Below are positions 1,081 to 36,913 of a DNA stretch of 64,000 nt, piece after piece; positions within the stretch are counted from its first letter, which is position 1; each line of letters starts with the position of its first letter. The position numbers were made by a program, and so were the translations under genes. The DNA is from Deltaproteobacteria bacterium. Its GTDB lineage: Bacteria > Myxococcota_A > UBA796 > GCA-2862545. Under the pieces are notes generated by a model. The model was not told where the DNA came from, searched no databases, and saw only the letters and a program-made list of their open reading frames with translations. The stretch is taken from contig SBGP01000010.1 in NCBI GenBank assembly GCA_006226595.1, positions 62,001 to 126,000 of the forward strand, written 5' to 3'.

Positions 1081-1130
1081 CTTCGTGCACCTCTCCGGGA
1101 CAAGAGCCTACACGCTGCGCGGGTCGGGGT

Positions 1131-1136
1131 TAGCCG
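1131..1136 (+). promoter_or_regulatory. Candidate -10 box (TAGCCG), short-leader class
   Basis: Sits 23 nt upstream of the ATG at 1154, with GGAGG between. It fits the recurring local pattern of a TA-containing box 20-27 nt before starts that carry a Shine-Dalgarno. A close parallel (GTTAGCC followed by GGAGG) occurs before the DUF4920 gene at 53043. No clear -35 was seen. Confidence 0.35.
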
Positions 1137-1153
1137 AAGCTTCCGGAGGTTCG

Positions 1154-2047
1154 ATGTCCGCGTTCTCGACGCCCTTGTCCCGCAAGCTCGGCCTGACCTA
1201 CCCGCTGGTCGCCGCCCCGATGTTCATCATCTCGAACAAGGAGATGCTGCTCGCGTGCGCCGAAGCCGGCATCCTCGGCGCGATGCCGTCGCTGAACCAG
1301 CGAACCAGCGAGGGCCTGCGCGCCGACCTCGAGTGGGTCCGCAGCCGCACGGACAAGCCCTTCGCGATCAACCTCACCATCGGCCTGACCAACCCCGAGC
1401 GGCGCGAAGCCGACGTGCAGGCCTGCCTCGACTTCGAGGTGCCGGTGATGATCACGTCGTACGGCAACCCGACCGAGATCGTGCAGCGCGCCCACGAGAA
1501 GGGCATCACCGTGTTCCACGACGTCATCCGTCTCGACCATGCGCTCAAGGCCCAGAAGGCCGGTGTCGACGCGATCATCGGCGTCTCCCAGGGCGCTGGC
1601 GGTCACGCGGGCACCATCAACCCCTACGCCCTCATCCCCTACCTGCGCGCGAACCTGAACGTGCCGGTCATCGGTGCCGGCTGCATCAGCGGCGGGGAGC
1701 AGGTGGCGGCCGCACTCGCCCTCGGTGCCGAGCTCGCGTACATGGGCACCCGCTTCATCGCGAGCAGCGAGTGTGCCGCGCCGCAGGCGTACAAGCAGAT
1801 GGTCGTCGACAGCACCCACGACGACATCGTGTACACCGACCAGATCTCCGGCGTGCACGCGAACTTCCTCAAGCAGACCATCCCCGACTCCTTCGAGGCC
1901 GGCGGCCACGACGCCGCGCGGCGCTGGGTGGACATCTGGAGCGCCGGTCAGGGCGTCGACACCATCCACGACATCAAGCCCATCGGCGAGATCGTCGAGG
2001 ACATCGTCCGCGAGTACCACGACGCGGTGAAGCGACTGGCGGGATGA
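1154..2047 (+). CDS. Nitronate monooxygenase / 2-nitropropane dioxygenase family
   Basis: 297 residues with the FMN-binding TIM-barrel features of the family. 'PLVAAPMFIISN' lies at the N-terminus, 'GVSQGAGGHAG' holds the phosphate-binding and catalytic His region, and 'VIGAGCISGGEQVAAALALG' and 'AYMGTRF' follow. Family members oxidise alkyl nitronates with FMN and O2; many homologues act on other substrates, so the substrate is open. The ATG at 1154 was chosen because GGAGGT lies 4 nt upstream and homology starts at 'PLSRKLGLTYPLVAAPM'; longer in-frame extensions show no homology. Its TGA overlaps the next ATG (ATGA), so the two genes are probably co-translated. Confidence 0.9.
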   Translation: MSAFSTPLSRKLGLTYPLVAAPMFIISNKEMLLACAEAGILGAMPSLNQRTSEGLRADLEWVRSRTDKPFAINLTIGLTNPERREADVQACLDFEVPVMITSYGNPTEIVQRAHEKGITVFHDVIRLDHALKAQKAGVDAIIGVSQGAGGHAGTINPYALIPYLRANLNVPVIGAGCISGGEQVAAALALGAELAYMGTRFIASSECAAPQAYKQMVVDSTHDDIVYTDQISGVHANFLKQTIPDSFEAGGHDAARRWVDIWSAGQGVDTIHDIKPIGEIVEDIVREYHDAVKRLAG

Positions 2048-2742: not shown

Positions 2743-3693
2743 TCAGGCGCTGACCGGCGTGCCGTTGCCCACGGCCAGCATGCCGAAGTCGACTCCCGTG
2801 AGCTCGACGCTCTGGTCCCACAGCTGACGCTGCAGGTCGGTGTCGTGCGAGCGCTTGGAGGAGTCCACCTTCTTCGGGTAGCCGCGGAACTCGCCGAGCC
2901 CGCCAGGCCCGTAGTAGTCGCCGCCGACCACGTCGGGGTGGGTCGCCGCGTACAGCTGGGGCAGCGCGCCCATGTCGGCGGACTGGGCGAGAAGCTTGTT
3001 GCCGAGCGACATGATGCCGCCCATGAACTTGCTGCCGGCGACGCGCGGCGCGACGAACTGCAGGTCGGTGTCGGCGTAGCCGGGGTGTCCCGCGACCGCG
3101 ATCACCGGTGCCTGGGCCCGGGCCAGCCGCCGCTGGAGCTCGTAGGTGAACAGCAGGTTCGCGACCTTGGAGCGCGCGTAGGCATCCCAGTTCGAGTAGC
3201 CCGCGTCCGAGCGCAGATCGGTCATGTCCATCTGGCGCATGCGGTGGGCGTTGCTGGCGACCGACACGACCCGGGCCGCCGGTGCGGCGAGCAGCTTGCC
3301 GAGCAGCAATCCGGTGAGCGCGAAGTGACCGAGGTGGTTGGTGCCGATCTGCATCTCGAAACCGTCGGCGGTCTGGCGGTATGGGATCGCCATCACCCCG
3401 GCGTTGTTGATCAGCAGGTCCAGGTGGTCGATGTCGAAGCCAGAGGCGAAGGCCCGCACGGACGAGAGATCCGAGAGGTCGAGGGGCCGGACCTCGATGG
3501 ACGGCTCGCTCACGGCCTCTCGGATGCGTGCCTCGGCGGCTGCAGCCTTCTCGAGGTTGCGCGCGGCGATGATCACGTGGGCGCCCTTGCGGGCGAGCTC
3601 GCGCGCGGTAACCTCGCCGAGACCACCGTTTCCGCCAGTCACCACGACCACGCGTCCAGATTGATCGGGGATGTCAGCAGCCGTCCAGGGCAT
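2743..3693 (-). CDS. Short-chain dehydrogenase/reductase, retinol-dehydrogenase-like
   Basis: 316 residues with a complete classical SDR set: TGGNGGLG (19-26) for NAD(P), NNAG (96-99), Ser147, Tyr172 and Lys176. A C-terminal extension of about 130 residues is typical of the retinol-dehydrogenase/WWOX-like subgroup, whose members interconvert lipophilic aldehydes or ketones and alcohols. It is the last gene of the minus-strand run containing the ACP and the aminotransferase-acyl-ACP-reductase fusion, 95 nt downstream of it. A TACGCT box 26 nt before the ATG suggests it also has its own promoter. A role in reducing a fatty aldehyde or keto intermediate fits the context but is inferred. Confidence 0.88.
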   Translation of the reverse strand: MPWTAADIPDQSGRVVVVTGGNGGLGEVTARELARKGAHVIIAARNLEKAAAAEARIREAVSEPSIEVRPLDLSDLSSVRAFASGFDIDHLDLLINNAGVMAIPYRQTADGFEMQIGTNHLGHFALTGLLLGKLLAAPAARVVSVASNAHRMRQMDMTDLRSDAGYSNWDAYARSKVANLLFTYELQRRLARAQAPVIAVAGHPGYADTDLQFVAPRVAGSKFMGGIMSLGNKLLAQSADMGALPQLYAATHPDVVGGDYYGPGGLGEFRGYPKKVDSSKRSHDTDLQRQLWDQSVELTGVDFGMLAVGNGTPVSA

Positions 3694-3788: not shown

Positions 3789-6578
3789 CTACCGGCGGTT
3801 CTCGTCGATCTCGAATCCGGCGACCCGCGCCAGCTCGCGCACCTGGCGCACGCGAGCCGCGTTGAGGTCGCCACAGGAGAAGTTTTCGCGCACGCCAGAC
3901 ACGCCGAGGAGCAGGGTCTCGGCGAGGCAGCCGTACAGTTCGCCCGGTCGCAGGCTCATGCCGTCGAAGGCGAGCTGCTGACCGAGGGGCGCGCGGACCA
4001 TGCCCCCGCGGAGCACCACCGCGTCGGGGCGGCACAGGTCGACGGCCGGCGCGACGTCGGTGGGAACGGCCACGTCGACGACCACCGTCGGCGCCATGCT
4101 GATGTGCTCGGGCAGGATCACCGGGCGCGGGGCGTTGGTCGCCGAGAGCACCATGTTGCAGCTCGGGAGCGCGCTCATGTCGTCGATGCGCACGGGGGCG
4201 GCATCCCCGAGGCGCTCGTTCACCGCGTCGACCAGCTGGTCCTCGGGCACGTCGAGGAAGTCCGCCATCACCCTGGCGATGCCGCGGTCGTGGCCCTCGC
4301 GGGCCCGGGCCTGAGCCGACGCGTAGATGCGCGCGACGACCCGGTCCAGACGCCGGGACCGACGCTGGCGACCGACGAGCACGATCTCGTCGACCTCGTC
4401 GGCGGCCACGTCCGCGAGCACCGCGCCGATGTTGCCAGCGGCGCCGACGATGCCCATGCGGCGGTGCTCCAGACCGAGACGCTCGGCGGCGAGGCGCGCC
4501 GCTTCGAGGCCCGCGGCCGCGGTGAGGCTGTTGCCGGAGGTGACGTTGAGGTCCGGGTTCACCACCTCGCGGCAGTTGCCCGTGAGGATCGACGTGTAGC
4601 CGCCGAAGCCGAGCAGGCTGCACCCCAGGCGACGCGCGGTCTCGACACCCTGGTGGATGAGCTCGAGGATCCAGTCGTTGCCGGCGCGCAGGCTCTCCAT
4701 GGCCTGATCCGGGGTGAACGGGATGCCGATGACGGTCACGGTGACCGCCTGCCCCGTCGCGGACTGCAGGGTGTTGCGCGCGACGACGAACGGGTCGATG
4801 GCGCCCTCGGTGCGCGCGAGGAAGGCCTCGCAGTCGCGCTTCGAGAAGGGCGACAGGCTCTTGTCCCAGGTCTTGAGCCCCTCCGGCTCGAGGAAGTGCG
4901 CCAGGAAGCCGACGTGCGTCTGGCCGGGCGGCACCGGGGGAATCGGGGTCGGCGCTGGCTGCTCCACCCGCTTCGCGGCCTGTCCGGTGCGGCCCACGAG
5001 GCAGCGACTCAGGGTCCACGCGTCCGAGTGGCGCATCGCTTCGAGCGCCTCGCCCAGGGCGGCGCAGAACCGGTCGAGGTCCGCCTCCGCGATGAACGCC
5101 GAGGGCTGCAGGCGCAGGGTCGTGCGCGCCGAGAGCGTGGAGGTCACCCGCACTCCGTGCTCGCGGAGCAGGAAGCCCGCGACGAGGTACGCGAGGGTGT
5201 CCTGCTCGGAGAGCACGCGCAGGAGCGCACTGTGGCTCCCCTCCTGGGTCGCGAGCTCGACGCCGACCATCAGCCCACGGCCCCGAACGTCGACGATCTG
5301 GTCCGGGTAGCGCGCACGCAGCGCGTCGAGCTTGTCGCGGAAGCGGGCGCCGAGGGTGGCACAGCGCGCCGGCACGTCCTCGTCGTCGAGCAGATCGAGG
5401 ACCTTGTTCGCGACCGCGCTGGAGAAGTGGTCCTCGGCGTAGGTCGAGGTGTGGGCGATGCCGAACTCGGGCTCGTACCGACGCGCGTCGACGAGCAGGG
5501 CCGAGATCTTCGCGAGGCCGCCGGACAGCGTCTTCGCGAGGGTCACGTAGTCGGGCACGACCCCGGAGGGCTCGCTGGCGAGGAAGGTGCCCGTGCGCCC
5601 CATGCCGCACTGGATCTCGTCGAAGACCAGCGGGAACGCCCCGGCATCGGCCGCGTCGCGCAGCGCGCTCAGATAGTCGGCGCCGATCTCGACCACGCCG
5701 CCCTCTCCCTGGATGGGCTCGACGATGGCCATGCACACGTTGACGAAGGCGCGCTCGACGAGCACGACCTCCCCGCCCTCGATCGCGAGGGTGCGGTAGG
5801 CAATGGTCGCGTCCTCGACGGCCTCGGCGAGAGCATCCACGTCCTCTCGGGGCAGGAACACGCTCCGCGGCCCGACCCGGGTCCACGGCATGCGGAAGCT
5901 CGCGTTGTGCGTGAGCTGCACGGAGCCGAGCGTCTTGCCGTGGAAGGCGCCCTCGAGCGCGAAGAACACCGGGCGCTGCTCGAGCAGCTCGAGGACCCCG
6001 CGCGACACGCGCATGAGCAGCTCGGACAGCGTCGGGATCTGCTCGACCCCGAAGGCGCGCGCCGCTTGCTTGAACAAGCGCGGAGGCAGGCGCACCCGCT
6101 GCTCGAGCAGCCCGAGCTGGATGGCGTCGCGCGTGCGCTGGAGCTCGGTGAGCACGCCCTCGGCGCGGTTTCTCCGCTCGAGCTCGGCGTGCTTCATCGC
6201 CGCCTCGACAGCCTCGGTGCCCGAGTTCGCGAGGGTGACGACGTACTCCTGGCCCGTGGTGCGGCCGACCCGCTCCGAGAGCCGCTGCGCGAGCACACCT
6301 GCTTCGCCGCGACCGCTACCCTGGGCGTGGAACGGCCTCCCGCTCGCGAGCACGTCCTGGGCGACGGCGACCAGCTGCGGGTGGTTGTGGCCCAGCAGGG
6401 ACGCGCCGAAGCCGCCGACCATGTCGAGCACCTCGACCTCGGCGCCGGACTCGTCGCGGTACCAGACACGGTCCCCGGACGCCCGGTGGTACTCGACGTC
6501 CAGCCCCACCGCGCGCAGGCGGCTCATCAGGGAGGGCTTGACGAAGTCCCCGTAGGCATCGAGGCGCGCGTCCCCCAT
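3789..6578 (-). CDS. Fusion of class III aminotransferase with long-chain acyl-ACP reductase (AAR-like)
   Basis: 929 residues in one frame. Residues 1-515 are a class III PLP aminotransferase: 'ANSGTEAVEAAMKH', 'EGAFHGKTLGSV', Asp320 in 'VFDEIQCGMGRTG' and the PLP lysine Lys349 in 'LAKTLSGGL'. About 55 extra residues (135-200) lie between two conserved motifs compared with usual family members. A Pro-rich linker (539-552) leads to residues 553-929, which match cyanobacterial acyl-ACP reductase: 'LGFGGYTSI' (656-664), Rossmann glycines 'GIVGAAGNIGAV' (709-720), Cys884 in 'YGCLAETLLL' at the position of the catalytic cysteine, and the ending 'NFSCGDLN'. Such reductases make fatty aldehydes from acyl-ACP; the attached transaminase could aminate the aldehyde. 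The start overlaps the ACP stop (ATGA). Confidence 0.88.
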   Translation of the reverse strand: MGDARLDAYGDFVKPSLMSRLRAVGLDVEYHRASGDRVWYRDESGAEVEVLDMVGGFGASLLGHNHPQLVAVAQDVLASGRPFHAQGSGRGEAGVLAQRLSERVGRTTGQEYVVTLANSGTEAVEAAMKHAELERRNRAEGVLTELQRTRDAIQLGLLEQRVRLPPRLFKQAARAFGVEQIPTLSELLMRVSRGVLELLEQRPVFFALEGAFHGKTLGSVQLTHNASFRMPWTRVGPRSVFLPREDVDALAEAVEDATIAYRTLAIEGGEVVLVERAFVNVCMAIVEPIQGEGGVVEIGADYLSALRDAADAGAFPLVFDEIQCGMGRTGTFLASEPSGVVPDYVTLAKTLSGGLAKISALLVDARRYEPEFGIAHTSTYAEDHFSSAVANKVLDLLDDEDVPARCATLGARFRDKLDALRARYPDQIVDVRGRGLMVGVELATQEGSHSALLRVLSEQDTLAYLVAGFLLREHGVRVTSTLSARTTLRLQPSAFIAEADLDRFCAALGEALEAMRHSDAWTLSRCLVGRTGQAAKRVEQPAPTPIPPVPPGQTHVGFLAHFLEPEGLKTWDKSLSPFSKRDCEAFLARTEGAIDPFVVARNTLQSATGQAVTVTVIGIPFTPDQAMESLRAGNDWILELIHQGVETARRLGCSLLGFGGYTSILTGNCREVVNPDLNVTSGNSLTAAAGLEAARLAAERLGLEHRRMGIVGAAGNIGAVLADVAADEVDEIVLVGRQRRSRRLDRVVARIYASAQARAREGHDRGIARVMADFLDVPEDQLVDAVNERLGDAAPVRIDDMSALPSCNMVLSATNAPRPVILPEHISMAPTVVVDVAVPTDVAPAVDLCRPDAVVLRGGMVRAPLGQQLAFDGMSLRPGELYGCLAETLLLGVSGVRENFSCGDLNAARVRQVRELARVAGFEIDENRR

Positions 6579-6817
6579 CAGACCTTCCGGGAGACGTAGT
6601 CGATGAGGTCGCGGGTCGTCTTCACGCGGGCGAGGGCCGGGTCCTGCTCGTCGAGCTCGATGTCGTACTCCTCTTCGACGGCGATCATCAGGTCGACGAG
6701 GCGCACCGAGTCGAGGCCCAGACCGACCAACTTCGCGTCGTCCGACACGGTGTCGACCTCGATGCCGCAGACCTCTGCCACCTGCTCCTTGAGAAAGGAC
6801 GCGAGTTCACTGCTCAT
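6578..6817 (-). CDS. Acyl carrier protein
   Basis: 79 residues, normal ACP length. Ser37 in 'GLGLDSVRLVDLMIAVEEEY' is the phosphopantetheine attachment site, and the flanking acidic helix II is typical. The ATG at 6817 is preceded by TTGGAG at normal spacing; an upstream ATG would add 45 Arg-rich, non-homologous residues. It sits between the CarS-like gene and the aminotransferase-reductase fusion and is translationally coupled to the latter. This suggests a dedicated carrier that presents an acyl chain to the fused reductase, perhaps loaded by the fatty-acyl-AMP ligase encoded at 9324-11252. Confidence 0.93.
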   Translation of the reverse strand: MSSELASFLKEQVAEVCGIEVDTVSDDAKLVGLGLDSVRLVDLMIAVEEEYDIELDEQDPALARVKTTRDLIDYVSRKV

Positions 6818-6855: not shown

Positions 6856-7461
6856 TCAGAGGTTCTTGCGTACCTTCGCACGGTACAACGCGAAGTTGAT
6901 CGCGAGGTGCACCCCGGTGAGCACCACGGAGCCCAGCGCCACCGCACTCCACGAGATGCCGTAGGCGAGCTTCGCGAGCAGCAGGGCCGCGACGACACTG
7001 TCGCCCTGGTCGACCACGAAGAACAGGGCGCCGACGAAGCCCGAGCCGACCTTGCCGGGGGTGATGTCAAGCTGACGCTTGGTGAACGAGTTCGGCAGCT
7101 CGCCCAGCGCGTAGCCGAGCCCCATCACGCCGTGAACCAGCCCGTAGCCGAGCACGAGTGCGAGTGGGCCCTCTGCGCCGCCGCCGGCCGCGCGAAAGTC
7201 GACGAGGGTGCCGCCCTCGAGGGCCGAGCCGGCGAGCAGGCCGAGGATCGCGCCGAACAGGGCGGACGCACCGATCATCCACACGACGCCGCGCCAGGTC
7301 TTGTTCTCGCCGAACAGCCGCTGTCCGCGGAAGGTCAGCCCGCCGTCGAGCGGCTTTTTCAGCCCCGGCGCGAGATCCCGTTTCACCACGACCATATGAA
7401 GGATGCCGGCGAAGACCACCGGAAGCGAGAAATACAGGACCTGGCCGAGGAGAACGAGCAT
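6856..7461 (-). CDS. CDP-archaeol-synthase-like (CarS/DUF46) integral membrane protein
   Basis: 201 residues with about five membrane helices. The CarS family signature is visible: 'PLDGG' (37-41), then 'LFGENKTWRG' (49-58), and later 'LGELPNSFTKRQLDI' and 'VVDQGDS', which correspond to the metal- and nucleotide-binding part of CDP-alcohol-forming enzymes. Archaeal CarS transfers CMP from CTP to unsaturated archaetidic acid; the substrate of bacterial homologues is unknown. It is the first gene of the minus-strand lipid operon. Its start codon overlaps that of the divergent amidohydrolase gene (CATG at 7459-7462). There is no Shine-Dalgarno; a TATGAC box 15 nt upstream suggests a leaderless message. 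Confidence 0.8.
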   Translation of the reverse strand: MLVLLGQVLYFSLPVVFAGILHMVVVKRDLAPGLKKPLDGGLTFRGQRLFGENKTWRGVVWMIGASALFGAILGLLAGSALEGGTLVDFRAAGGGAEGPLALVLGYGLVHGVMGLGYALGELPNSFTKRQLDITPGKVGSGFVGALFFVVDQGDSVVAALLLAKLAYGISWSAVALGSVVLTGVHLAINFALYRAKVRKNL

Positions 7462-9323: not shown

Positions 9324-11252
9324 TCAGCTGCGACCGAAGAGCTTGCGACCGCGCATCACCGCGTAGCCGAACTGGCTGCGCATGAACATCCACGCGAGAC
9401 GGGCGGTGGCCTCGCTCGGCGGCTTGAGCTCGCCGGCGACCCAGCGCGTGCGGGTCGTGCCCCGGCGACGCTTGCCGCTCGACGTCTTCGGGATCGTCCC
9501 GGGGACGACGATCTCGACCACGTCGATGGTCAGGCCACACTCGCGGGACACGTGCTCGCGCACCTGCTCGAGCAGCTCGGCCTTCTCGGCCTTGTCGGTG
9601 AGCTTGGTCTCGCAGATGACGACGACCTTGTCGGTCGCGGTGGACTCGTCGTACACGCCGAAGGCCACGCAGCCGCCGCCGCGAACGCCGTCGAGGGCCT
9701 CGGCCGCCGACTCGAGGTCCTCGGCGTAGTAGTTCTTGCCGCGGACGATGATCAGGTCCTTCACGCGGCCGGTGATGTACAGCTCGCCCCCGCTGACGAA
9801 GCCGAGATCACCGGTCCACAGGAAGCCATCGCGCACGACCTCGTCGGTGGCCGACTGGTTCTCGAAGTAGCCCTGCATGATCGAGCGACCGCCGGCGAGC
9901 ACGTGCCCGACGACGTCCTCGCTGCACTGCTGCCCCTCCGAGTCGACGACCTGGACCACCTGGCCGGGAATCGCCTTGCCGACACAGGCGACGGCGATGG
10001 CCTGCGGCCCGCCGTCGGAGGGCTCGACATAGCCGTTGGCGAGGGCCTCGCGGTCGACGAGCTTGGTCTTGATCGGCGCCGAGAGCTCCGAGAAGGTCAC
10101 CGCCACCGAGGCCTCGGCGAGGCCGTAGATCGGACACACCGCGTGCGCGGGCAGGCCGTAGGGGGCGTAGGTGTCGGTGAAGTTCTGGACGGTATCGACG
10201 TTGACCTGCTCGGCGCCGTTGCCGGCCCAGCGCCAGCACGACAGGTCGAGTCCCTCACGCTGCTTCTCGGTCACGCGCCGAACCGCGAGGATGTAGCCGA
10301 AGTTTGGCGCCGGGGAGAGCGTGCAGCGGTAGTCGCTGATCGCCCGCAGCCAGCGGTGGGGCCGACGCAGGAACGCGAGCGGCGACATGAGCACCATCGG
10401 CAGCCGCCAGTAGATCGCGAACAGCAGCGCGCCGATCAGCCCCATGTCGTGGTACAGCGGGCACCAGCTCGCGACGCGGTCGTCGCGTCGGACCTCGATG
10501 GCCTGGCCGATGCTGTGCACGTTGCACACGAGGTTGTCGTGGGTGAGCACGACGCCCTTGGGGTCCCCGGTGGAGCCCGACGTGTACTGGATGAACGCCG
10601 GCTTGTCGGGACGCGGCACGCGAATGCGCTCGATGGGCCCGTACGCGAGCAGCGCCGGCACGGCGGTCACGTACTCGAGCGTCGGCGCCGACAGCCCGAG
10701 GTCCCCGAGCACCGGCATGACGGCATCCCAGGTGATGCACACCTTGGCGCGGGACTGACGCGCGATGCGACCCAGGCGCTCGATGCCGGCCTCGACCTGC
10801 ATGCCCGCCGGTGGGTACACCGGAATCGGCACCGCGCCCACGGCCTGGATCGCGAAGAAGGACATGATGAACTCGTGCCCGGTCGGCAGTACGAGGATGA
10901 CCCGGTCCTTGCGGTCCACGCCCAGCGCCTTGAGCCCGTTCGCGATCCGGAGCGCACCCTCGTACAGCTCGGCGTAGCTCTTGTGGACCGGCGGATGCTT
11001 CTCGCGCTCGCCGAGCAGGGTGACGCCCTTGTCCGGGGACTTCAGGGCCGCAGACTCGAGCGCCTCGAGCACGTTCGTGTGGATGGGCCGCACTTCTTCG
11101 GGGAAGGCGAACTTGCCGTGGATCCACTCGGCCGTGCGAAAGCCCGTGAACGACACGTCCTCGGTGATCGAGTCGAGTGGCCCGTAGGGCTGCCACTTGC
11201 CGTCTTCCGTCGGAAAGCGGCTCACGAATCGCTTTGGCGCGCGCTCGGACAT
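9324..11252 (-). CDS. Fatty-acyl-AMP ligase (FAAL-like adenylating enzyme)
   Basis: 642 residues. ANL-superfamily motifs run in order: 'AVPIPVYPPAG' (about 140-150, typical of FAALs), P-loop 'YTSGSTGDPKG' (223-233), 'YGLAEAS', 'TGDLGF', the hinge 'GRVKDLIIVRGKNYYAEDLE' and the C-terminal catalytic Lys in 'IPKTSSGK'. FAALs activate fatty acids as acyl-adenylates and load them onto carrier proteins. The likely acceptor is the ACP encoded at 6578-6817, although the genes are not contiguous. The ATG at 11252 has AGGGAG upstream; a start at 11390 would add 46 non-homologous residues. FAAL versus CoA ligase cannot be settled by eye. Confidence 0.88.
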   Translation of the reverse strand: MSERAPKRFVSRFPTEDGKWQPYGPLDSITEDVSFTGFRTAEWIHGKFAFPEEVRPIHTNVLEALESAALKSPDKGVTLLGEREKHPPVHKSYAELYEGALRIANGLKALGVDRKDRVILVLPTGHEFIMSFFAIQAVGAVPIPVYPPAGMQVEAGIERLGRIARQSRAKVCITWDAVMPVLGDLGLSAPTLEYVTAVPALLAYGPIERIRVPRPDKPAFIQYTSGSTGDPKGVVLTHDNLVCNVHSIGQAIEVRRDDRVASWCPLYHDMGLIGALLFAIYWRLPMVLMSPLAFLRRPHRWLRAISDYRCTLSPAPNFGYILAVRRVTEKQREGLDLSCWRWAGNGAEQVNVDTVQNFTDTYAPYGLPAHAVCPIYGLAEASVAVTFSELSAPIKTKLVDREALANGYVEPSDGGPQAIAVACVGKAIPGQVVQVVDSEGQQCSEDVVGHVLAGGRSIMQGYFENQSATDEVVRDGFLWTGDLGFVSGGELYITGRVKDLIIVRGKNYYAEDLESAAEALDGVRGGGCVAFGVYDESTATDKVVVICETKLTDKAEKAELLEQVREHVSRECGLTIDVVEIVVPGTIPKTSSGKRRRGTTRTRWVAGELKPPSEATARLAWMFMRSQFGYAVMRGRKLFGRS

Positions 11253-11404: not shown

Positions 11405-12022
11405 ATGCTGCGCTTCTTCAACGTCGCCAACGCCGTGACCCTCGTAGGCCTGTGGTCCGCGGTGGCGTGTGCCCTGCTCGCGGCGGGCGGCAAGCCGGCC
11501 TACGCGATCGTGGCGCTCATCGTCGCCGGCATCGCCGACTTCCTCGACGGGGCGATCAGCCGCAAGCTGACGCGAACCGAAGAGGAGCAGCGCTTCGGCG
11601 CCAACCTCGACAGCGTCGCCGACTCCTGCAGCTTCGGCATGGCTCCGGCCGTGCTCTTCTGGTCCCTCGGGATGCAGACCGTCCCCGACGCCCTCGCCAT
11701 CGGCTTCTTCGCGGCGTGCGCCGTGTGGCGGCTGGCCTACTTCGACACCGTCGGCTTCGGTGACGGCCCGAGCCGCACCTACACCGGCCTGCCAACCACC
11801 TTCGTCGCGCTCATCCTCCCCCTGGCACTGCTCGGCGGCTTCGCGGCCCCCGACGCCACGGTGTGGATCGCCCGAGTCGCCTGCGTGCTGCTCGGAGCCG
11901 CCATGGTGTCGACGGTGAAGGTCCCCAAGCCGGGCGGCGCGATGTACGTCGTTCTTCCCGTGCTCGCGCTCATCGTCGGCAGCACCTTCGCGCTGAAGGC
12001 CGCCGACTTCCCCGTTCCCTGA
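11405..12022 (+). CDS. PssA-like CDP-alcohol phosphatidyltransferase
   Basis: 205 residues, about six membrane helices. The CDP-alcohol signature is 'DFLDGAISRK' followed by 'FGANLDSVAD'. All four Asp residues are present, Ser replaces the usual Ala before Arg, and the spacing between Arg and the FG pair is about 3 residues longer than in most PssA proteins. 'GLPTT' after the fourth helix is typical of phosphatidylserine synthases. It probably transfers serine or another alcohol to a CDP-lipid at the inner membrane. A phosphatidylserine decarboxylase gene at 21039 could complete an ethanolamine head group. It is the first gene of an operon with dikinase and exporter genes, 7 nt before the dikinase ATG. 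Confidence 0.85.
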   Translation: MLRFFNVANAVTLVGLWSAVACALLAAGGKPAYAIVALIVAGIADFLDGAISRKLTRTEEEQRFGANLDSVADSCSFGMAPAVLFWSLGMQTVPDALAIGFFAACAVWRLAYFDTVGFGDGPSRTYTGLPTTFVALILPLALLGGFAAPDATVWIARVACVLLGAAMVSTVKVPKPGGAMYVVLPVLALIVGSTFALKAADFPVP

Positions 12023-12029
12023 GGTCGAG

Positions 12030-14606
12030 ATGACCGCCACCATCCGCACCCTGGCCGAGGTCGGTGAGCTCGACCTCTCCGAGGTCGGCGGCAAGGCCCG
12101 CTCGCTGGGCGTCCTCGCGGCCGCTGGCTTCCGTGTGCCCGGCGGCTTCGCGCTGACCACCAACGTGCTCGAGCGCTTCCTCGCGCTCACGGGGCTGGCG
12201 GAAGAGCGCCAGGCGATGGACGCGCAGATCGCCGACGGCGAGCTGCCGGACGAGGCGCGGCTCGCCGCGTTCCGCGAGGCCATTACGGCCGCGACCTTCC
12301 CCGATGCGCTCGCCGCCGAGGTGCGCGAGGCCATGGGCACCGCCCTTCCCGCGGTGGACCACCCGGTCGCCGTGCGCTCGAGCGGCACCCGAGAGGACCT
12401 CGAGGGCGCCTCGTTCGCAGGGCAGTACGAGACCTACCTCAACGTGCGTGGCGTCGACGCCGTGCTGCGGAGCATCCAGCTGTGCTGGGCGAGCGTGTGG
12501 GAGCACCGGGTGCTCGACTACGCCCAGAACCGAGCGGGTGGGGCGAGCGGCCTGCAGATGTGCGTGGTCGTGCAGCAGATGGCGCTCGCCGACGTGAGCG
12601 GCGTGCTGTTCACGGTGAACCCGGTGAGCGGGCGCGAAGAGGAAGTCCTCGTCGAGTCGGTCTTCGGTCTCGGCGAAGCGCTGGTGTCCGGACGGGTCAC
12701 CGCCGATCAGTTCGTCGTCGACGCGTACACCCACGCCGTCACGCGCGAGACGCTCGCCGACCAGGCCTTCGCCGTGCGGCCGACCGCCCAGGGCACCGAG
12801 GAGGTGACACTCGACGAGCCCGGTGCCCGCTCGCTGACCGACGCACAGCTCGCCGAGCTCGGGGCGCTCGCCGCCGACATCCAGGAGCACTATGGTCGCC
12901 CCATGGACGTCGAGTTCGCGTTCGCGGACGGCCAGCTCTACGTGCTCCAGGCAAGGCCGATCACGACCCTGTCCTTCGCAGCGGACATCGGCGAGTGGAC
13001 CACCGCCGACTTCCGCGACGGCGGCGTGTCCTCCGGCGTGTGCTCGCCGTTCATGTGGTCGCTGTACGACTACGCGCTCGAGAGCTCGATGCCCGGGTAC
13101 TTCAAGGACATCAAGCTCATCCCGCCCGAGTACGAGGCGACCTGGGGCCGCATGTTCTTCGCCCGTCCTTATTGGAACCTCGGCGAGGTGAAGAAGGCGC
13201 TGATGCCGCTGCCCGACTTCGACGAGGCGGGCTTCTACGCGGACATGGGCGTCGAGATGGAGCCAGGCTTCGTCGGGCGCAAGACCCCGCTCACCGTCAC
13301 GGGCGTGCTCAGGGCGCTGCCGACGCTGTTCGCGCTCAACCGCAACTACAAGGAACGCCTGACGTGGGCCGAGCGCTTCGTCGCCGAGTTCCCAGCCCGC
13401 AAGGCCCCGTACGACATCGCGCCGAGCGACATCGCGGCCCTCGACCGGGACACGTTCGTCCGTCGCTTCGGCCACCTGCTCCGCGACCTGTATCGCGACA
13501 CCGAGGCTGGCTACTTCTCGACCATCTACAACACGTCGAACAGCAAGACCGACCTGCGGCCCGCCTTCGAGAAGGCGAACGCGGCGACCGGCGGCAAGCT
13601 CGACGAGCCCACGCTGCTCGGCGGACTCAAGGACCTGTCGCACCTCCGCCCGATGAAGGACATGCGTCGCGTCGTCGGCGCCCTCCACGCAGCCAGAAAG
13701 CCGCTCGACGACGAGACCGTCGCGGAGTTCGCGCAGCGCTGGCGCCACCACGGCAAGAAGGAGCTCGACATCCGCGTGCCGCGGTGGGTCGACGACCACG
13801 ACTTCGTGCGCGCGATGCTCCAGAGCGCCCTCGATACCTACGATCCGAAGGCCGACACCGACGCGATGGAGCAGGCGCACCACCAGCGCTACCTCGACCT
13901 CCGCGACGAGGCGGTGCGCGCCCTGCGGTTCCGCCCCTTCCTCAAGCGGTCCTTCCTCTCGAAGCTGGACCTGGTGCGCAAGTACGCGTGGTGGCGCGAG
14001 GAGATGCGCGACCACTCGAGCTTCGCCTACTACCTGGTTCGGCTGTGGGCCGTGGATGCCGCGCGTCGCCTGGTCGACGAGGGCGCATTCGCGGAGCCCG
14101 ACGACATCTGGCACCTGACCTGGCAGGACGTGCTCGCCCTGTTCGAGGGCACGCTCGACCACGACGAAGCGCGCACGCGCATCCGCGCCGGCCGACGACT
14201 GGTTCGCTCGTTCCGGAACTTCGACAACCCGAACGAGATCGGCAGCCACTTCGCGGTGCCCGATGCCGGTGAGCGCCCCGAAGGCGCGCTGACCGGCACG
14301 CCGTGCTCCGCGGGTCGCGTGACGGCGCGGGCCTGTGTGGTCCGCACCCTCGAGGAAGCCGACAAGCTGCAGCCCGGCGACATCCTCGTCACCGTGTTCA
14401 CCGATCCCGGGTGGACTCCCCTGTTCTCGCGCATCGCCGGCGTCGTCACCGAGACCGGCGGCGTGCTGTCCCATGCGGCGGTGATCTCGCGCGAGTACGG
14501 CATTCCCGCCGTTCTCGCGGTGCAAGGCGCCACCCGCTTGATCGAAGATGGGCAGCAGATCACCCTCGACGGACTCGCCGGCACGGTCGAGCCGCTGGAG
14601 GACTAG
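12030..14606 (+). CDS. Dikinase with ATP-grasp and swivelling phospho-His domains (rifampin-phosphotransferase-like)
   Basis: 858 residues. The N-terminal 320 residues are the PPDK/PEP-synthase ATP-grasp domain ('VGGKARSLGVL', 'AVRSSGTREDLEGASFAGQY', 'VLQARPITTL'). The C-terminus is the mobile phospho-His domain with His815 in 'GGVLSHAAVISREYGIPAV'. Between them are about 450 residues without the PEP-binding TIM barrel of true PEP synthase. Length and layout match rifampin phosphotransferase (about 865 aa), which splits ATP and passes the beta-phosphate to an alcohol. Substrate unknown; its place between a CDP-alcohol transferase and a lipid exporter suggests a lipid or polyol hydroxyl. It ends in TAGTG, coupling it to the MMPL gene. 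Confidence 0.83.
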   Translation: MTATIRTLAEVGELDLSEVGGKARSLGVLAAAGFRVPGGFALTTNVLERFLALTGLAEERQAMDAQIADGELPDEARLAAFREAITAATFPDALAAEVREAMGTALPAVDHPVAVRSSGTREDLEGASFAGQYETYLNVRGVDAVLRSIQLCWASVWEHRVLDYAQNRAGGASGLQMCVVVQQMALADVSGVLFTVNPVSGREEEVLVESVFGLGEALVSGRVTADQFVVDAYTHAVTRETLADQAFAVRPTAQGTEEVTLDEPGARSLTDAQLAELGALAADIQEHYGRPMDVEFAFADGQLYVLQARPITTLSFAADIGEWTTADFRDGGVSSGVCSPFMWSLYDYALESSMPGYFKDIKLIPPEYEATWGRMFFARPYWNLGEVKKALMPLPDFDEAGFYADMGVEMEPGFVGRKTPLTVTGVLRALPTLFALNRNYKERLTWAERFVAEFPARKAPYDIAPSDIAALDRDTFVRRFGHLLRDLYRDTEAGYFSTIYNTSNSKTDLRPAFEKANAATGGKLDEPTLLGGLKDLSHLRPMKDMRRVVGALHAARKPLDDETVAEFAQRWRHHGKKELDIRVPRWVDDHDFVRAMLQSALDTYDPKADTDAMEQAHHQRYLDLRDEAVRALRFRPFLKRSFLSKLDLVRKYAWWREEMRDHSSFAYYLVRLWAVDAARRLVDEGAFAEPDDIWHLTWQDVLALFEGTLDHDEARTRIRAGRRLVRSFRNFDNPNEIGSHFAVPDAGERPEGALTGTPCSAGRVTARACVVRTLEEADKLQPGDILVTVFTDPGWTPLFSRIAGVVTETGGVLSHAAVISREYGIPAVLAVQGATRLIEDGQQITLDGLAGTVEPLED

Positions 14607-17044
14607 TGGCCACCGCCCGCAATCGCTTTCACGCCCTGGCCGAGCACGTGCTCGGCATGCGCTGGCTGTACCTGGCGCTGGTCGCCGTGCTCGTCGTCGG
14701 CGCGGTCTCCGCGATCTCGACGATGCTCCGGGTCGACAACAGCACGGAGTACTTCGCCGCCAGCGATGCCGAATCCAAGGCCTTCCTCGACGAGTTTCGC
14801 GCGGAGTTCGGCCGCGACGAGATGACCTACGTGCTCGCCGAGGGCGACGTGTTCACCGTCGAGTTCCTCACCCAGCTTCGCGAGCTGCACGAGTCGCTCG
14901 AGCGCTTCGACCTCGAGCTTCTCGACGCCGAGGAGCAGGAGGAGGCGACCGCGACCTTCGACGGCTTCGGCGAGGACGAGGGCTGGGGCGACGAAGCCGG
15001 CGGCTCGCTGGTCGACAAGGTCACCAGCCTGATCAACTTCCGGCGCACGGTCTCGGACGAGCGCGGCGTGCGGGTGGTCGGGTTCATGGACGAGCCGCCC
15101 ACCGCCGAGGAGCTTCCCGGCCTGTGGGAGACCGCGAAGAACGACCGCACGATGCTGGGCAACATCGTCGGCCATGGCGGTCACCACACGGTGATCGCGG
15201 TGAAGACCCGCATCCTGAGCGAGCGGGACTCGGACCGCGTGTCCGTGGCCCTGCGCGAGTACATCGAGCCCTATGAGGCCGAGGGCTTCGCCTTGTCGCT
15301 CACCGGCGCTCCGCCGATGAACGAGACGCTCAACCGCATGGTCATCGAGGACGTGAACCTGCTGATCACGCTAGCGACCTTGTTCATGATCGTCATGCTC
15401 TATGTGCTGTTCCGGCGCCCCATCGCCGTGATCGGACCGCTCGTGGTCGTCAGCTGCTCCTCCACCTTCACCATGGCCGCGATGGCCCTGGCCGGCGCCC
15501 CGCTCACGCTGCTCACCAACGTGCTGCCCGCGTTCATCTGCTGCGTGGGGCTCGGGGACTCCATCCACGTGGTGTCGGTGTGGCGAGATCTGCGAGCGCA
15601 GGGACTCGGCAACCGCGAAGCCATCGTCGAGGCCATCGGCAGCACCGGCACGCCCATCGTGCTCACCTCGCTGACCACGGCGGCTGGCCTCGCCTCGTTC
15701 TACCTGTCGTCGAGCCAGGCCACCCGCGAGGTCGGCGTCGCCGGCGCGTTCGGCGTGATGGCCGCGATGACGCTGTCGCTCGTACTGCTCCCGGCCATCC
15801 TCTCCTTCGCTCGCGGCGCCGTCGAGGCCAGCGAGCCCAAGGAGCGCGCGCCGGACCTCACCGACCGCTTCATCGCGGCGTGCACGAACCTGTCGCGCGA
15901 GCGTGGCCCCCGCACCGCGCTGCTCGCGACCGTGCTCGCCGGCGTAATCGTCCTGTTCTGGGGCCTCGCGAACCTCGGCGTGTATCACGACCCGCTCGTG
16001 TGGTTCGGCAAGGACAGCCCGGTCACCATCGGCATCGAGACCATGGATGCCGAGGTCGGCGGCACCGCGCCCGCGAGCATCGTCATCGACGCAAAGGACG
16101 CCGGCGTCCGCGATCTACGCGTGCTGAAGGCCATGGAGAAGCTCGAGGCGCACATCCTGCAGTACCGCCAGCCGGGCACCGGCGAAGCCGTCGTCACCAA
16201 CGTGAGCAGCGTGCTCGACGTGCTCCGCGAGACCCACCAGGCCCTCAAGGGCGGCGCCGAGGCCGAGTACCGCTTGCCCGAGAGCCAGCGCGGCGTGGAC
16301 GACACCCTGCTCGTGTTCGAGAACGCCGGACCCGACGAGCTCGCCGAGTTCGTCACCGGCGACTACAGCCGCGCGAAGATGGTCGTGCGCCTGAAGTGGA
16401 TGGACGCCAGCTCCTACCAGCCGTTCGCGGCTCACGTGGACGCCGGTGTGGACGAGTTCGTCGGTGAGCTCGCCGAGGTGAACTCGACCGGGACGATCTA
16501 CAACGTCCTGCGTGTCGTCGACTCGCTGATGACCGATCTCGCAAAGAGCTTCACCGGCGCGCTCCTCGCCATCACCGTGATGATGATCGCGCTGTTCGGA
16601 CGGCTCAAGCTGGGTCTCATCGCAATGTTGCCCAACCTGCTGCCCATCCTGTTCCTGCTCGGGTTCATGGGGCTCACGGGCATCGCCATCGACTTCAACA
16701 ACCTGCTCATCGCCTCGATCGCGCTGGGCATCGCCGTCGACGACACCATTCACTACGTCCACCAATTCAAGATCGGCTTCGACCGTACGGGCGACGCCGA
16801 GGACGCGATCCAGCGGGCCATCGCCCACACGGGTCGCGCCCTGGTGAGCACCACCGCGGTGCTCGTCATCGGCTTCGGCGTGTACCTGTCGTCGCGCCTG
16901 ATCAGCCTGCAGCGCTTCGGCCTGCTCATCGGCCTCGCGTGCATCGCGGCCCTGTTGTCCGATCTCATCGTGACGCCGGCCCTGCTTCGCGTGTTCTATG
17001 GCCGCAAGTCCCCTTCCCCTGGAGAAAGCCATGCGTCTGCGTGA
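14606..17044 (+). CDS. MMPL/RND family lipid exporter
   Basis: 812 residues, two halves each with one helix, a large periplasmic loop and a group of about five helices. The RND proton-relay style motifs are 'VGLGDSIHVVSVW' in the first half and 'LGIAVDDTIHYVHQFK' in the second. This resembles the hopanoid/MMPL-type RND transporters that move lipids rather than drugs. The GTG at 14606 overlaps the preceding TAG and has GGAGGA 5 nt upstream. Its 3' end overlaps the LolA-like gene by 14 nt. The first periplasmic loop has a very acidic insert around residue 115 (GFGEDEGWGDEAGG). Likely cargo is the lipid made by neighbouring enzymes. Confidence 0.87.
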   Translation: MATARNRFHALAEHVLGMRWLYLALVAVLVVGAVSAISTMLRVDNSTEYFAASDAESKAFLDEFRAEFGRDEMTYVLAEGDVFTVEFLTQLRELHESLERFDLELLDAEEQEEATATFDGFGEDEGWGDEAGGSLVDKVTSLINFRRTVSDERGVRVVGFMDEPPTAEELPGLWETAKNDRTMLGNIVGHGGHHTVIAVKTRILSERDSDRVSVALREYIEPYEAEGFALSLTGAPPMNETLNRMVIEDVNLLITLATLFMIVMLYVLFRRPIAVIGPLVVVSCSSTFTMAAMALAGAPLTLLTNVLPAFICCVGLGDSIHVVSVWRDLRAQGLGNREAIVEAIGSTGTPIVLTSLTTAAGLASFYLSSSQATREVGVAGAFGVMAAMTLSLVLLPAILSFARGAVEASEPKERAPDLTDRFIAACTNLSRERGPRTALLATVLAGVIVLFWGLANLGVYHDPLVWFGKDSPVTIGIETMDAEVGGTAPASIVIDAKDAGVRDLRVLKAMEKLEAHILQYRQPGTGEAVVTNVSSVLDVLRETHQALKGGAEAEYRLPESQRGVDDTLLVFENAGPDELAEFVTGDYSRAKMVVRLKWMDASSYQPFAAHVDAGVDEFVGELAEVNSTGTIYNVLRVVDSLMTDLAKSFTGALLAITVMMIALFGRLKLGLIAMLPNLLPILFLLGFMGLTGIAIDFNNLLIASIALGIAVDDTIHYVHQFKIGFDRTGDAEDAIQRAIAHTGRALVSTTAVLVIGFGVYLSSRLISLQRFGLLIGLACIAALLSDLIVTPALLRVFYGRKSPSPGESHASA

Positions 17045-17837
17045 CCTGCTCGTCCTCGCCGCGTTCCTCGCCTCCCCGGCCTGGGCCATCTCGCCCGACA
17101 GCACCGATGCCGACGCGATCATGCGCGAGGTCGAGGACCGCGACCTCGGCGACCGCGGCACCTCCCGGATGCAGATCGTCGTCACCGACAAGGCCGGCCA
17201 CTCGCGCACGCGCACCGTGCAGACCCGCGGCATGAAGTTCGACGGCGGCCGCCGCGAGCTGATGCTGTTCGACAGCCCGGCCGAGCTGCGCAACGCCGGC
17301 CTGCTCTCCGTCGACTTCGACGAGGGCTCCGCCACCGACGACCAGTGGCTGTACCTGCCGAGCATGAACCGTACGACGCGCATCGCCGGCTCCGAGAAGT
17401 CGAGCTCGTTCATGGGCACCGACCTCACCTACGCCGACATGACCAAGGCCGATCCCGACGACTATGCGTACACGATGGTCGAGGTGAACGCCGAGGCCGG
17501 TGGCGAGGCCGCGTGGCTGATCGAAGCGCGCCCGGTCACCGACAAGGCCAAGGAGGAGACCGGCTACCTCAAGACCCAGGTGTGGGTCAGCAAGGACAAG
17601 CTGGTGCCGCTGCAGGCGAAGGCCTGGGTCATCGCCGGCAAGAAGCTCAAGTACACCGAGTACAAGAACTGGAAGAAGGTCGACGGCGTGTGGATCGCCC
17701 ACGAGACCGTGGTCCGCACCACCCGTGACGGCGCACTGCTCTCCACGTCGGTACTCACCACGAGCGACGTGCGCTTCGGCGTGGACGACGTGACCGAGGC
17801 CGACTTCACGCAGCAGCGCCTGGAGCGCGGCCTGTGA
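17031..17837 (+). CDS. Outer-membrane lipoprotein-sorting (LolA-like) protein
   Basis: 268 residues with a signal peptide (1-19, cleavage after 'SPAWA'). The mature part has the LolA/LolB-like half-barrel pattern: 'ADAIMREVEDRD' at the start, 'RTRTVQTRGMKF', 'WLYLPSMNRTTRIAG' and 'SSSFMGTDLTYADM'. This family is often encoded beside MMPL transporters and probably shuttles a lipid through the periplasm. GGAGAAA lies 4 nt before the ATG at 17031, making that start better than the ATG at 16998. It overlaps the MMPL gene by 14 nt and the next gene by GTGA. Confidence 0.87.
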   Translation: MRLRDLLVLAAFLASPAWAISPDSTDADAIMREVEDRDLGDRGTSRMQIVVTDKAGHSRTRTVQTRGMKFDGGRRELMLFDSPAELRNAGLLSVDFDEGSATDDQWLYLPSMNRTTRIAGSEKSSSFMGTDLTYADMTKADPDDYAYTMVEVNAEAGGEAAWLIEARPVTDKAKEETGYLKTQVWVSKDKLVPLQAKAWVIAGKKLKYTEYKNWKKVDGVWIAHETVVRTTRDGALLSTSVLTTSDVRFGVDDVTEADFTQQRLERGL

Positions 17838-19321
17838 GCTTGGTCCTGCTGGCGCTGCTCGCCGCCCGCGCCGGCGACCCGAGCGAAGACGACTGGGGAA
17901 ACGACGACAGCATCGGGTTTCCCTCGTCGACGCCCTCGTCCGACGAGGACGACTGGGGTGAGGGCGACGACGGCTGGGGCGACGACGACGCCATCGGCTT
18001 TCCGTCCGACAGCAGCGCCCCGGCACCGCCCCCCACCCGCGAGTCGCCGATCCGCCTCGGTGGCACGGTGGTGAGCACGGACGTGATGTGGCTCCAGCGC
18101 CTCAAGGACGAGCCCTACGCGAGCTCCCGCAAGTCCTTCGACCCGCACCTGCGCATCGTCGAGGACAAGCTGCGCGTCGAGGTGAGCCTGCACTTCGAGG
18201 CCGACGCCCGCTACCTCGCCGAGGGCGAGGACCTCGATGACGCCACCTGGGAGGTGTACGCCTACCAGGCCGCTCCGCGCCTGCTGTTCGCCGATGTCGA
18301 GGTCCGTCCCGGCCTGGTCGTCTCGGCCGGTCGCCAGATCGTGTCCTGGGGCGAGGGCGTGGTCCTCTCGCCGCTCGACGTCATCAACCCCGCGGACCAG
18401 CGCGACCCGGGCCTCGGTGACCCCGACGACTTCAAGCTGCCCATCCTCATGGGTCGCGTCGACGGGCGCATCGGCGACCACGAGCTCGACGCCATCGTCG
18501 TGCCCGAGGCCTTCTTCGGGTACGTGCCGAACCCGACCGGTCCCTACGGTGCCCTCGACGACCTGCTCGCCGAGGCGAACATCCCGCCCGAGATGCTCGA
18601 GCCCTACACCATTCGCTACCAGCACGGCCAGCGTGGCACCGACCCGCGCAACTTCGAGGTCTACGGCCGGTGGCGCTACTTCGGGCGCGGCTTCGACCTC
18701 GGTCTGTACGCCGCCAGCCTGCTCGATGACGCCGGCCTGATCGTGTTCCAGGACGTCAGCGATGGCCTCGGCACCAACGAGAACGTCGACATCGTGCTCG
18801 ACCATCGCCGGTTCACGCTGCTCGGCCACTCCGGCACCGCCCTGCCTCACGAGGATCTGCTCGTTCGCTGGGAGCTGACCGCGGAGCTCGACCGCTGGTT
18901 CACGACCTACGAGTCGACGCCAGCACCGACCTTCGGCGAGGCCCAGGCGAGCATGGCTCGCGGCATGATCGGCCTGCAGTACAACGGCCTGCCGCGCACG
19001 ACCATCGATCTCGAGGCGACCAAGGGCCTGTTCTTCGAGCGTCCGCGTGGGCTGACCTTCGACGTCGACACCGAGATCTTCGCGCTGCGCGTGACCCACG
19101 ACGAGCTGCGCGAGCGCCTCGAGATGACCGTGCTCGCGATGCTGCTCGGCGCAGACCTGCTGTACGGCGGCGCCGTGCGCGCCGAGGTGAACTACGAGGT
19201 CGCCGACGGGCTGCGTGCCGGGCTCGGCGTCGTGCTCACCTACCCCGGAGACGAGCGCGGGCCGCTGTATGGTCTCGACGAGCACCACCGGGCCTTCGCC
19301 CGTGCCCGCTACGAGTTCTGA
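17834..19321 (+). CDS. Outer-membrane beta-barrel (porin/DUF1302-like) of the MMPL export operon
   Basis: 495 residues. A short signal peptide (about 1-12) follows a GTG start that overlaps the upstream TGA. The mature N-terminus is an acidic tract with two imperfect repeats of the pattern DDWG...DD(S/A)IGFP. From residue 75 on, alternating hydrophobic strands and a C-terminal Phe ('RARYEF') indicate a barrel assembled by BAM. With the MMPL pump and the LolA-like protein it would give a route across the whole envelope. No specific substrate motif was seen. Its TGA overlaps the next ATG (TGATG). Confidence 0.78.
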   Translation: MSLVLLALLAARAGDPSEDDWGNDDSIGFPSSTPSSDEDDWGEGDDGWGDDDAIGFPSDSSAPAPPPTRESPIRLGGTVVSTDVMWLQRLKDEPYASSRKSFDPHLRIVEDKLRVEVSLHFEADARYLAEGEDLDDATWEVYAYQAAPRLLFADVEVRPGLVVSAGRQIVSWGEGVVLSPLDVINPADQRDPGLGDPDDFKLPILMGRVDGRIGDHELDAIVVPEAFFGYVPNPTGPYGALDDLLAEANIPPEMLEPYTIRYQHGQRGTDPRNFEVYGRWRYFGRGFDLGLYAASLLDDAGLIVFQDVSDGLGTNENVDIVLDHRRFTLLGHSGTALPHEDLLVRWELTAELDRWFTTYESTPAPTFGEAQASMARGMIGLQYNGLPRTTIDLEATKGLFFERPRGLTFDVDTEIFALRVTHDELRERLEMTVLAMLLGADLLYGGAVRAEVNYEVADGLRAGLGVVLTYPGDERGPLYGLDEHHRAFARARYEF

Positions 19322-21042: not shown

Positions 21043-21911
21043 GTGGCGATGCCGGTGCCCATGCGCACCAGCGTCTCGAACCCGTTGCCGGTGTTCGCGA
21101 GCAGATCCGCGTCCCAGGTCAGCGCGCCGGGCTCGGCGAGCAAGACCACCGTCGAGCCGCCGAAGCGGAACAGGCCCTTGGCCGCCCCGCGGGTGACGCT
21201 TCCGGGCGCGTAGTGCTGCTCGATGGTGCCGACGAGAAGCGCGCCGACCTCGACGAGCACGAGGCGTCCGAAGCGCTCGGTGTCCAGCGTCGACACCGTC
21301 CGGTAGTTCTCGAAGCTGCGCGCCCCGGCGCCGAGAGCGATGGGGTGCACCGAGTGCAGGCGCCCGTCGATCTCGCGGGTGTCGCTGGCGACGCCGTCCG
21401 CGGGGAAGTGGAACCAGTGGTAGTCGGCGGGGGCGAGCCGCGCGACGAGCACCGCCCCTCCCGCGAGGGGTGCCGCGACCTCGGCGTCCCCGACCAGCTG
21501 AGCGACAGTGACCCGGCTGCCCTTTACCGGCAGCGCCTCGCCATCGATCGCCGCATACGCGAGCACCCGCGCATCGCAGGGCGACACGAGCCGTGCTGGA
21601 TCCGGATCGACCGGACGCACGCCCTCGCGCAGGCGGCGGGTGAAGAACGCATCGAGGTTCGGATAGGCCGAGAGCGGCAGCTCGGCTTCGGTGGCGTCGA
21701 TGCCGAGCTTGGCCACGAACTCGGGAATGCGCTGCTTCGAGCGCGGAGAGCGCTGCCAAAGCCCGTACAGGCGGTTGGTGCTCCGCCGCGTGAGCACGTG
21801 GTCGGTGAGCCAGCGCACCCGGCGGTCCTCGTAGAGCACGTTGAGGGCGCTCCCCCCGAACACCCGCTCCTCGACGACCTCGCCTCGCTCGCGATCGACG
21901 TAGGCGGTCAT
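21039..21911 (-). CDS. psd: Phosphatidylserine decarboxylase proenzyme
   Basis: 290 residues. Hallmarks are 'LDAFFTRRLREGVRPVDPDP', 'VSPCDARV', 'YHWFHFPADG' and the C-terminal autocleavage site 'RFGGSTVVLL', where Ser253 would become the pyruvoyl group; the motif is GGST rather than LGST. The enzyme decarboxylates phosphatidylserine to phosphatidylethanolamine at the inner membrane. It pairs logically with the PssA-like gene at 11405. The ATG at 21911 overlaps the stop of the upstream GNAT gene (ATGA), so the acyltransferase and decarboxylase are co-expressed. A decarboxylase for a non-canonical seryl lipid is possible. Confidence 0.93.
   Translation of the reverse strand: MTAYVDRERGEVVEERVFGGSALNVLYEDRRVRWLTDHVLTRRSTNRLYGLWQRSPRSKQRIPEFVAKLGIDATEAELPLSAYPNLDAFFTRRLREGVRPVDPDPARLVSPCDARVLAYAAIDGEALPVKGSRVTVAQLVGDAEVAAPLAGGAVLVARLAPADYHWFHFPADGVASDTREIDGRLHSVHPIALGAGARSFENYRTVSTLDTERFGRLVLVEVGALLVGTIEQHYAPGSVTRGAAKGLFRFGGSTVVLLAEPGALTWDADLLANTGNGFETLVRMGTGIAT

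Positions 21912-33448: not shown

Positions 33449-36913
<3,465 letters not shown>

Follow-up and report, generated by a model that had tools for sequence, protein, structure and literature searches.

A TamH/KecF-Type Aminotransferase-Reductase Fusion in a Gene Setting That Looks Like a Pathway for an Unusual Nitrogen-Containing Membrane Lipid

The window analyzed here is a stretch of 64,000 nucleotides from the genome of a deltaproteobacterium (contig SBGP01000010.1, assembly GCA_006226595.1). On its minus strand, a single open frame (window 6578 to 3789) encodes a protein of 929 amino acids. The frame has a strong coding and GC3 bias, with GC fractions of 0.75, 0.47, and 0.94 at the three codon positions. 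A previous sequence-only reading proposed that this frame joins a complete class III aminotransferase to a complete acyl-ACP reductase (AAR), and profile and structure-based searches bear this out. Residues 29 to 512 matched the Pfam family Aminotran_3 (E value, 4.5e-64). The C-terminal half (residues 530 to 929) fell within the AAR family, with matches to the cyanobacterial AAR 6jzu (2e-10) and to the AAR-like N terminus of PigE (4ppm; 1.5e-19) and similarity spanning about residues 550 to 929. The residues that had been named as catalytic, Asp320, Lys349, and Cys884, were without variation across 21 aligned fusions. The same was true of G712 and G715 in the proposed Rossmann motif (residues 712 to 718), whereas its third glycine, G718, is present here and variable elsewhere in the family. 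The protein thus has, in one frame, an N-terminal class III aminotransferase with the PLP lysine and a C-terminal AAR with the catalytic cysteine and the Rossmann glycines, features by which it is predicted to be a bifunctional enzyme of the TamH/KecF type.

The AlphaFold2 model of the fusion had a pLDDT of 87.5 and a pTM of 0.83. The nearest solved structure for the aminotransferase half, over residues 18 to 520, was CrmG (TM score by target length, 0.90; 35% identity). The substrate of CrmG, an enzyme of caerulomycin biosynthesis, is a bipyridine aldehyde. Unlike the fusion, CrmG has no reductase domain, but its fold (PDB 5dds and 8jt3) includes the helical segment found at about residues 120 to 200 of the fusion and in all of the relatives aligned. 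The insert at residues 135 to 200 had been suggested to be an element for docking the ACP or another partner. Because the fusion inherited this segment along with the CrmG-type aminotransferase fold, a special docking role is unsupported, and we rejected it.

The gene directly before the fusion encodes an acyl carrier protein (ACP) (6578 to 6817, minus strand) with an LDS site and a match to Pfam PP-binding (4.9e-11). The stop codon of the ACP gene does overlap the start codon of the fusion gene, as had been proposed, but the overlap is TGATG, sharing 1 nucleotide, rather than ATGA, and both genes are on the minus strand. A CarS-like CDP-lipid synthase, a membrane CTP transferase, is encoded at 6856 to 7461 (minus; Pfam CarS-like, 3.7e-12; NCBIfam PRK04032, 1.9e-16), and a short-chain dehydrogenase lies downstream of the fusion (2743 to 3693, minus; PRK06197, 3.9e-120). 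The fatty acyl-AMP ligase (FAAL) at 9324 to 11252 (minus; NF006624, 2.3e-137) is presumed to load the neighboring ACP. At 1130 to 2047 (plus) there is a nitronate monooxygenase/FabK-like protein, counterparts of which stand near fusions in Streptomyces-type loci.

The plus strand carries a CDP-alcohol phosphatidyltransferase resembling phosphatidylserine (PS) or archaetidylserine synthases (11405 to 12022, start inferred; Pfam, 1.3e-13), with NF038087 (archaetidylserine synthase; 3.6e-26) and pssA (1.5e-22) both scoring under their curated cutoffs. It is followed by dikinase 1 (12030 to 14606), an MMPL/HAE3 RND-type transporter (14603 to 17044), a LolA-like protein of the lipoprotein-sorting type (16998 to 17837; PF17131, 1.8e-43), a DUF1302 outer-membrane protein (17834 to 19321), and an acyl-CoA dehydrogenase-like protein whose membership in the pathway is uncertain (19321 to 21042). 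Dikinase 1 combines a PPDK_N ATP-grasp domain with a His swivel domain. Pfam assigns it PPDK_N and a C-terminal PEP-utilizers domain that ends the protein, with no pyruvate/PEP barrel found after the swivel domain, which rules out a PEP synthase of central metabolism. Dikinase 1 also scored below the NCBIfam cutoffs for the prodiginine ligases RedH (400 bits versus 1350) and PigC (361 versus 1300) and for rifamycin phosphotransferase (410 versus 999).

Four more genes lie on the minus strand. Phosphatidylserine decarboxylase (PSD) (21039 to 21911; NF001941, 3.1e-80), in which the FGGST motif is seen, overlaps the gene for a tandem-GNAT-type N-acyltransferase (21908 to 23008), whose Pfam Acetyltransf_1 score (0.0065) is under the cutoff. 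The model of the latter protein has low confidence (pLDDT, 58). It aligned with the tandem GNAT 2wpx (Z, 11.5; root mean square deviation [rmsd], 9.3; 235 residues aligned) and with the single GNAT 1s3z (Z, 10.8; rmsd, 3.0; 108 residues aligned), and amine acetyltransferases were among its best structural matches. As modeled, the protein has the GNAT fold, with the first domain better supported than the second. A diverged membrane enzyme of the UbiA family with a DELKDxExD motif (25213 to 26169; PRK13592, 3.1e-28; Pfam UbiA, 5.7e-07, under the cutoff) and dikinase 2, in which the swivel His is present (26244 to 28907), complete the cluster. Because their scores are under the cutoffs, family assignment does not decide the substrates of the PS-synthase-like and UbiA-like enzymes. 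The cluster extends about 27 kb around the fusion in several divergent transcription units, with apparently unrelated genes (an amidohydrolase and VIT1) interspersed. Not far from it, a 1,154-amino-acid BadF/BcrD-type ATPase plus DUF2229 protein (33449 to 36913, plus) has a makeup that we take to be that of PlsA/GeR-type ether-lipid reductases.

The cluster holds extra copies of lipid enzymes because the rest of the genome also has one canonical CdsA, another PSD (on contig C88), and three other CDP-alcohol transferases. We infer from the additional CarS, PS-synthase-like, and PSD genes that the context is one of lipid synthesis. This surrounding cluster, which the sequence-only reading missed, is a more unusual feature than the fusion itself.

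That reading knew of no described fusion of this kind, but KecF (2019; PMC6498172), PigE (2021; PMC8341465), and TamH (2022; PMC9594044) came earlier and rule out a new type of enzyme fusion. PtTamH, from the pathway for tambjamine YP1 in Pseudoalteromonas tunicata, converts a fatty acid to the C12 amine in vitro when coupled to the acyl-ACP-forming PtTamA (PMC9594044). It has the same domain order, a similar length (about 940 amino acids), the PLP lysine, GxxGxxG, and the catalytic cysteine, and its pathway likewise draws acyl-ACP from a dedicated ligase and ACP and includes a dikinase-type partner (TamQ). The two systems differ in that PtTamA is an ACP-ANL fusion whereas the window has a separate ACP and FAAL, and in that phospholipid-type genes stand in the window in place of a visible bipyrrole pathway. 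KecF, from the koreenceine pathway of Pseudomonas koreensis, also has an N-terminal aminotransferase and a C-terminal AAR-like reductase (PMC6498172). PigE, of prodigiosin synthesis, catalyzes thioester reduction and transamination (PMC8341465) and shares both domains and a dikinase-type pathway partner (PigC), but its domain order is reversed and its substrate and downstream chemistry are different. The scanned proteins, drawn from roughly the initial 30 kb of the window, included none for bipyrrole (MBC) synthesis (no prolyl ligase, PCP, KS, or PigH-type synthase), and only the generic acyl-CoA-dehydrogenase-like protein turned up. On the basis of these scanned neighbors, we rejected a tambjamine as the product, and the cluster does not fit a prodiginine pathway.

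Full-length relatives of the fusion occur in Proteobacteria, Methylomirabilota, Goldiibacteriota, Spirochaetota, and actinomycetes, and their distribution across the sampled genomes is patchy. In these genomes, many of which are drafts, the AAR half had matches in 9 of the 379 genomes from the window's phylum (with full-length fusions in few), in 11 of the 40 from the phylum of locus L008 (about 8 in frames of about 1,000 amino acids), and in 3 of the 393 from the phylum of locus L025; the class to which locus L007 belongs had 7 long fusions among 389 genomes. In the class of genome G379, many genomes encode proteins of about 700 amino acids in which an AAR-like part is fused to something else.

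Dikinase 1 adjoins the fusion in most relatives and was near it at 17 of 22 non-actinomycete loci, a count of loci of which several are closely related and do not represent independent events; among the remaining five, L009 sits on a short contig. Counted by locus in the same way, MMPL transporters were found at 9 of the 22, UbiA together with dikinase 2 at 8, GNAT at 7, a BtaA-like (DUF3419) protein at 6, PSD at 5, CarS at 3 (including L007 and L156), and PS synthase at 2, with a homologue in L007. Three genomes of the class of L007 (loci L160, L161, and L163) have a contiguous set of seven genes in the order dikinase 1, fusion, UbiA, BtaA-like, dikinase 2, GNAT, and PSD; L158 has the first six in that order, and the genes bordering the set in L161 and L163 seem unrelated. 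L007 has a run of fusion, dikinase 1, CarS, PS synthase, MMPL, GNAT, UbiA, and dikinase 2, and L008 has GNAT and dikinase 1 as a fusion. In a tree, the two dikinases fall into separate clades (support, 100/100). A core of fusion, dikinase 1, UbiA, dikinase 2, GNAT, and PSD recurs across distant lineages. BtaA-like and CarS genes did not occur together at any of the 22 loci. The head group module appears to be exchangeable because the BtaA-like gene stands in other phyla where CarS and PS synthase stand in the window. In the L129 to L133 subgroup, a radical SAM enzyme directly precedes dikinase 1 and the fusion, and a secreted protein and an MMPL transporter usually come next.

The first steps of a pathway can be proposed. 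A fatty acid would be loaded by FAAL onto the neighboring ACP; the acyl group would pass to Cys884 of the AAR domain and be reduced with NAD(P)H to the aldehyde, which the PLP domain (Lys349) would convert to a long-chain primary amine. Strong precedent exists for the two steps of the fusion; the loading step is presumed. We consider it likely that the fusion makes an amine from acyl-ACP via the aldehyde because the catalytic residues are invariant, PtTamH has been shown to do so, and KecF and PigE provide further precedents. This was also the proposal of the sequence-only reading and remains the best one, although the idea of channeling the aldehyde between the domains had already been advanced for PigE.

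Dikinase 1, the constant partner, may be the next enzyme, activating or condensing the amine in the manner of PigC or TamQ; its linkage to the fusion, the Nocardia frames in which the order is aminotransferase, AAR, and dikinase, and the TamH/TamQ and PigE/PigC pairs all point to this role. In L028 (7953 to 13865) and similar Nocardia loci, such a frame of about 1,970 amino acids, with ACP and FAAL alongside, ends, on the C-terminal side, in an additional stretch resembling a P-loop kinase. In the window's genome, the amine probably goes into a dedicated membrane lipid rather than into a tambjamine. Completion of a hydrophobic core with N-linked chains would fall to dikinase 2, the UbiA-like enzyme, and the tandem GNAT; the linkage in this core could be an amide, an amine, or a phosphorylated amino-alcohol. 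From the known functions of their families, the core, once phosphorylated, may be CDP activated by the CarS-like enzyme; the PS-synthase-like enzyme may then install serine as the head group, which the second PSD would decarboxylate. The MMPL, LolA-like, and outer-membrane proteins may export the product.

Taken as a whole, a dedicated membrane-lipid pathway with a TamH-type fatty-amine step, head group steps, and export is the explanation that we modestly favor. For the cluster in this window the chances that it specifies a membrane-lipid pathway are roughly even. The dispersal of the genes in divergent units over about 27 kb and the presence of CarS and PS synthase at only three and two loci count against it, as do the low confidence of the GNAT model and the PS-synthase and UbiA scores under the cutoffs. 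Furthermore, the fusion and a dikinase do not by themselves imply a membrane lipid, since actinomycete pairs occur without lipid genes.

Those actinomycete loci, which have an ACP directly upstream of the fusion and FAAL nearby, as in the window, and sometimes a dikinase, resemble secondary-metabolite clusters, and the window fusion groups with the actinomycete fusions (support, 100/99). The fusion/dikinase pairs that have been characterized are TamH/TamQ and PigE/PigC. It is therefore conceivable, if unlikely, that the product is a soluble or secreted secondary metabolite: dikinase 1 would condense the amine with a small partner, the role that a bipyrrole aldehyde plays for TamQ, MMPL would export the product, and the phospholipid genes would be incidental. 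However, PSD, UbiA, dikinase 2, and GNAT are found again alongside the fusion in distant lineages, other biosynthetic genes are not evident in the compact operons, and bipyrrole, PKS, and NRPS genes were not seen among the scanned cluster proteins. At L010, L012, L015, and L036, the actinomycete fusions have no dikinase and share a pair of small conserved proteins (of about 323 and 292 amino acids) as well as additional AMP ligases, which marks a metabolite cluster of another kind.

For the loci with BtaA, the adjacency of the BtaA-like gene to PSD and GNAT in L008, L160, L161, and L163, and the amine acetyltransferases among the matches of the GNAT model, could instead suggest an N-alkyl polyamine-type amphiphile, in which an aminocarboxypropyl group from SAM is placed on the amine nitrogen, decarboxylated by the PSD-like enzyme to an N-alkyl-diaminopropane, and acylated by GNAT. 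This is improbable: BtaA homologues are known for transfer to the oxygen of diacylglycerol, the window cluster has no BtaA, and CarS and PS synthase act on lipid phosphates. A comparably poor prospect is that the fusion acts on a hydroxy- or keto-acyl-ACP to give an amino-alcohol or cyclic imine. KecF, which is proposed to act on a polyketide chain from the ketosynthases of its own cluster, is a precedent, and a free hydroxyl would offer the dikinases a target for phosphorylation, but no ketosynthase was seen in the scanned cluster and FAAL suggests a ready-made fatty acid. Although CarS, archaetidylserine synthase, and a decarboxylase are the families of the archaeal phospholipid head group pathway, the top curated matches are to CDP-archaeol and archaetidylserine synthases, and a UbiA-like enzyme recalls DGGGP synthase, it is very improbable that the cluster is a bacterial counterpart of the isoprenoid ether-lipid pathway of archaea, with the fusion as a bystander. 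We rejected archaeal ether lipids for the lack of any match to GGGP synthase (PcrB family; PF01884) in this 97% complete genome (search controls were positive). The UbiA score is also under the Pfam cutoff, no other members of the set recur as constantly as the fusion and dikinase 1, and fatty-amine, FAAL, dikinase, and GNAT genes are found instead.

The fusion type is already known, but its gene setting looks new. No description of a lipid operon of such makeup was found in the open-access literature searched. The gene set, common to several distant phyla, looks built for an unusual nitrogen-containing membrane lipid and its export. More tentatively, it may specify an undescribed class of lipids with N-linked chains, sporadic in several phyla, with a core made by a TamH-type synthase, two swivel dikinases, a UbiA-like enzyme, and a tandem GNAT, and capped by one of two exchangeable modules (CarS, PS synthase, and PSD, or BtaA-like and PSD). 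If so, a lipid biosynthetic pathway absent from the open literature searched would be at hand, and a natural-product enzyme type like TamH/TamQ would be tied to membrane chemistry. The gene set would be ready for lipid discovery by expression and mass spectrometry and would provide a set of natural catalysts for the one-pot conversion of acyl-ACP to amine, and the compact operon would serve as a tracer for the pathway in uncultured and cultured lineages.
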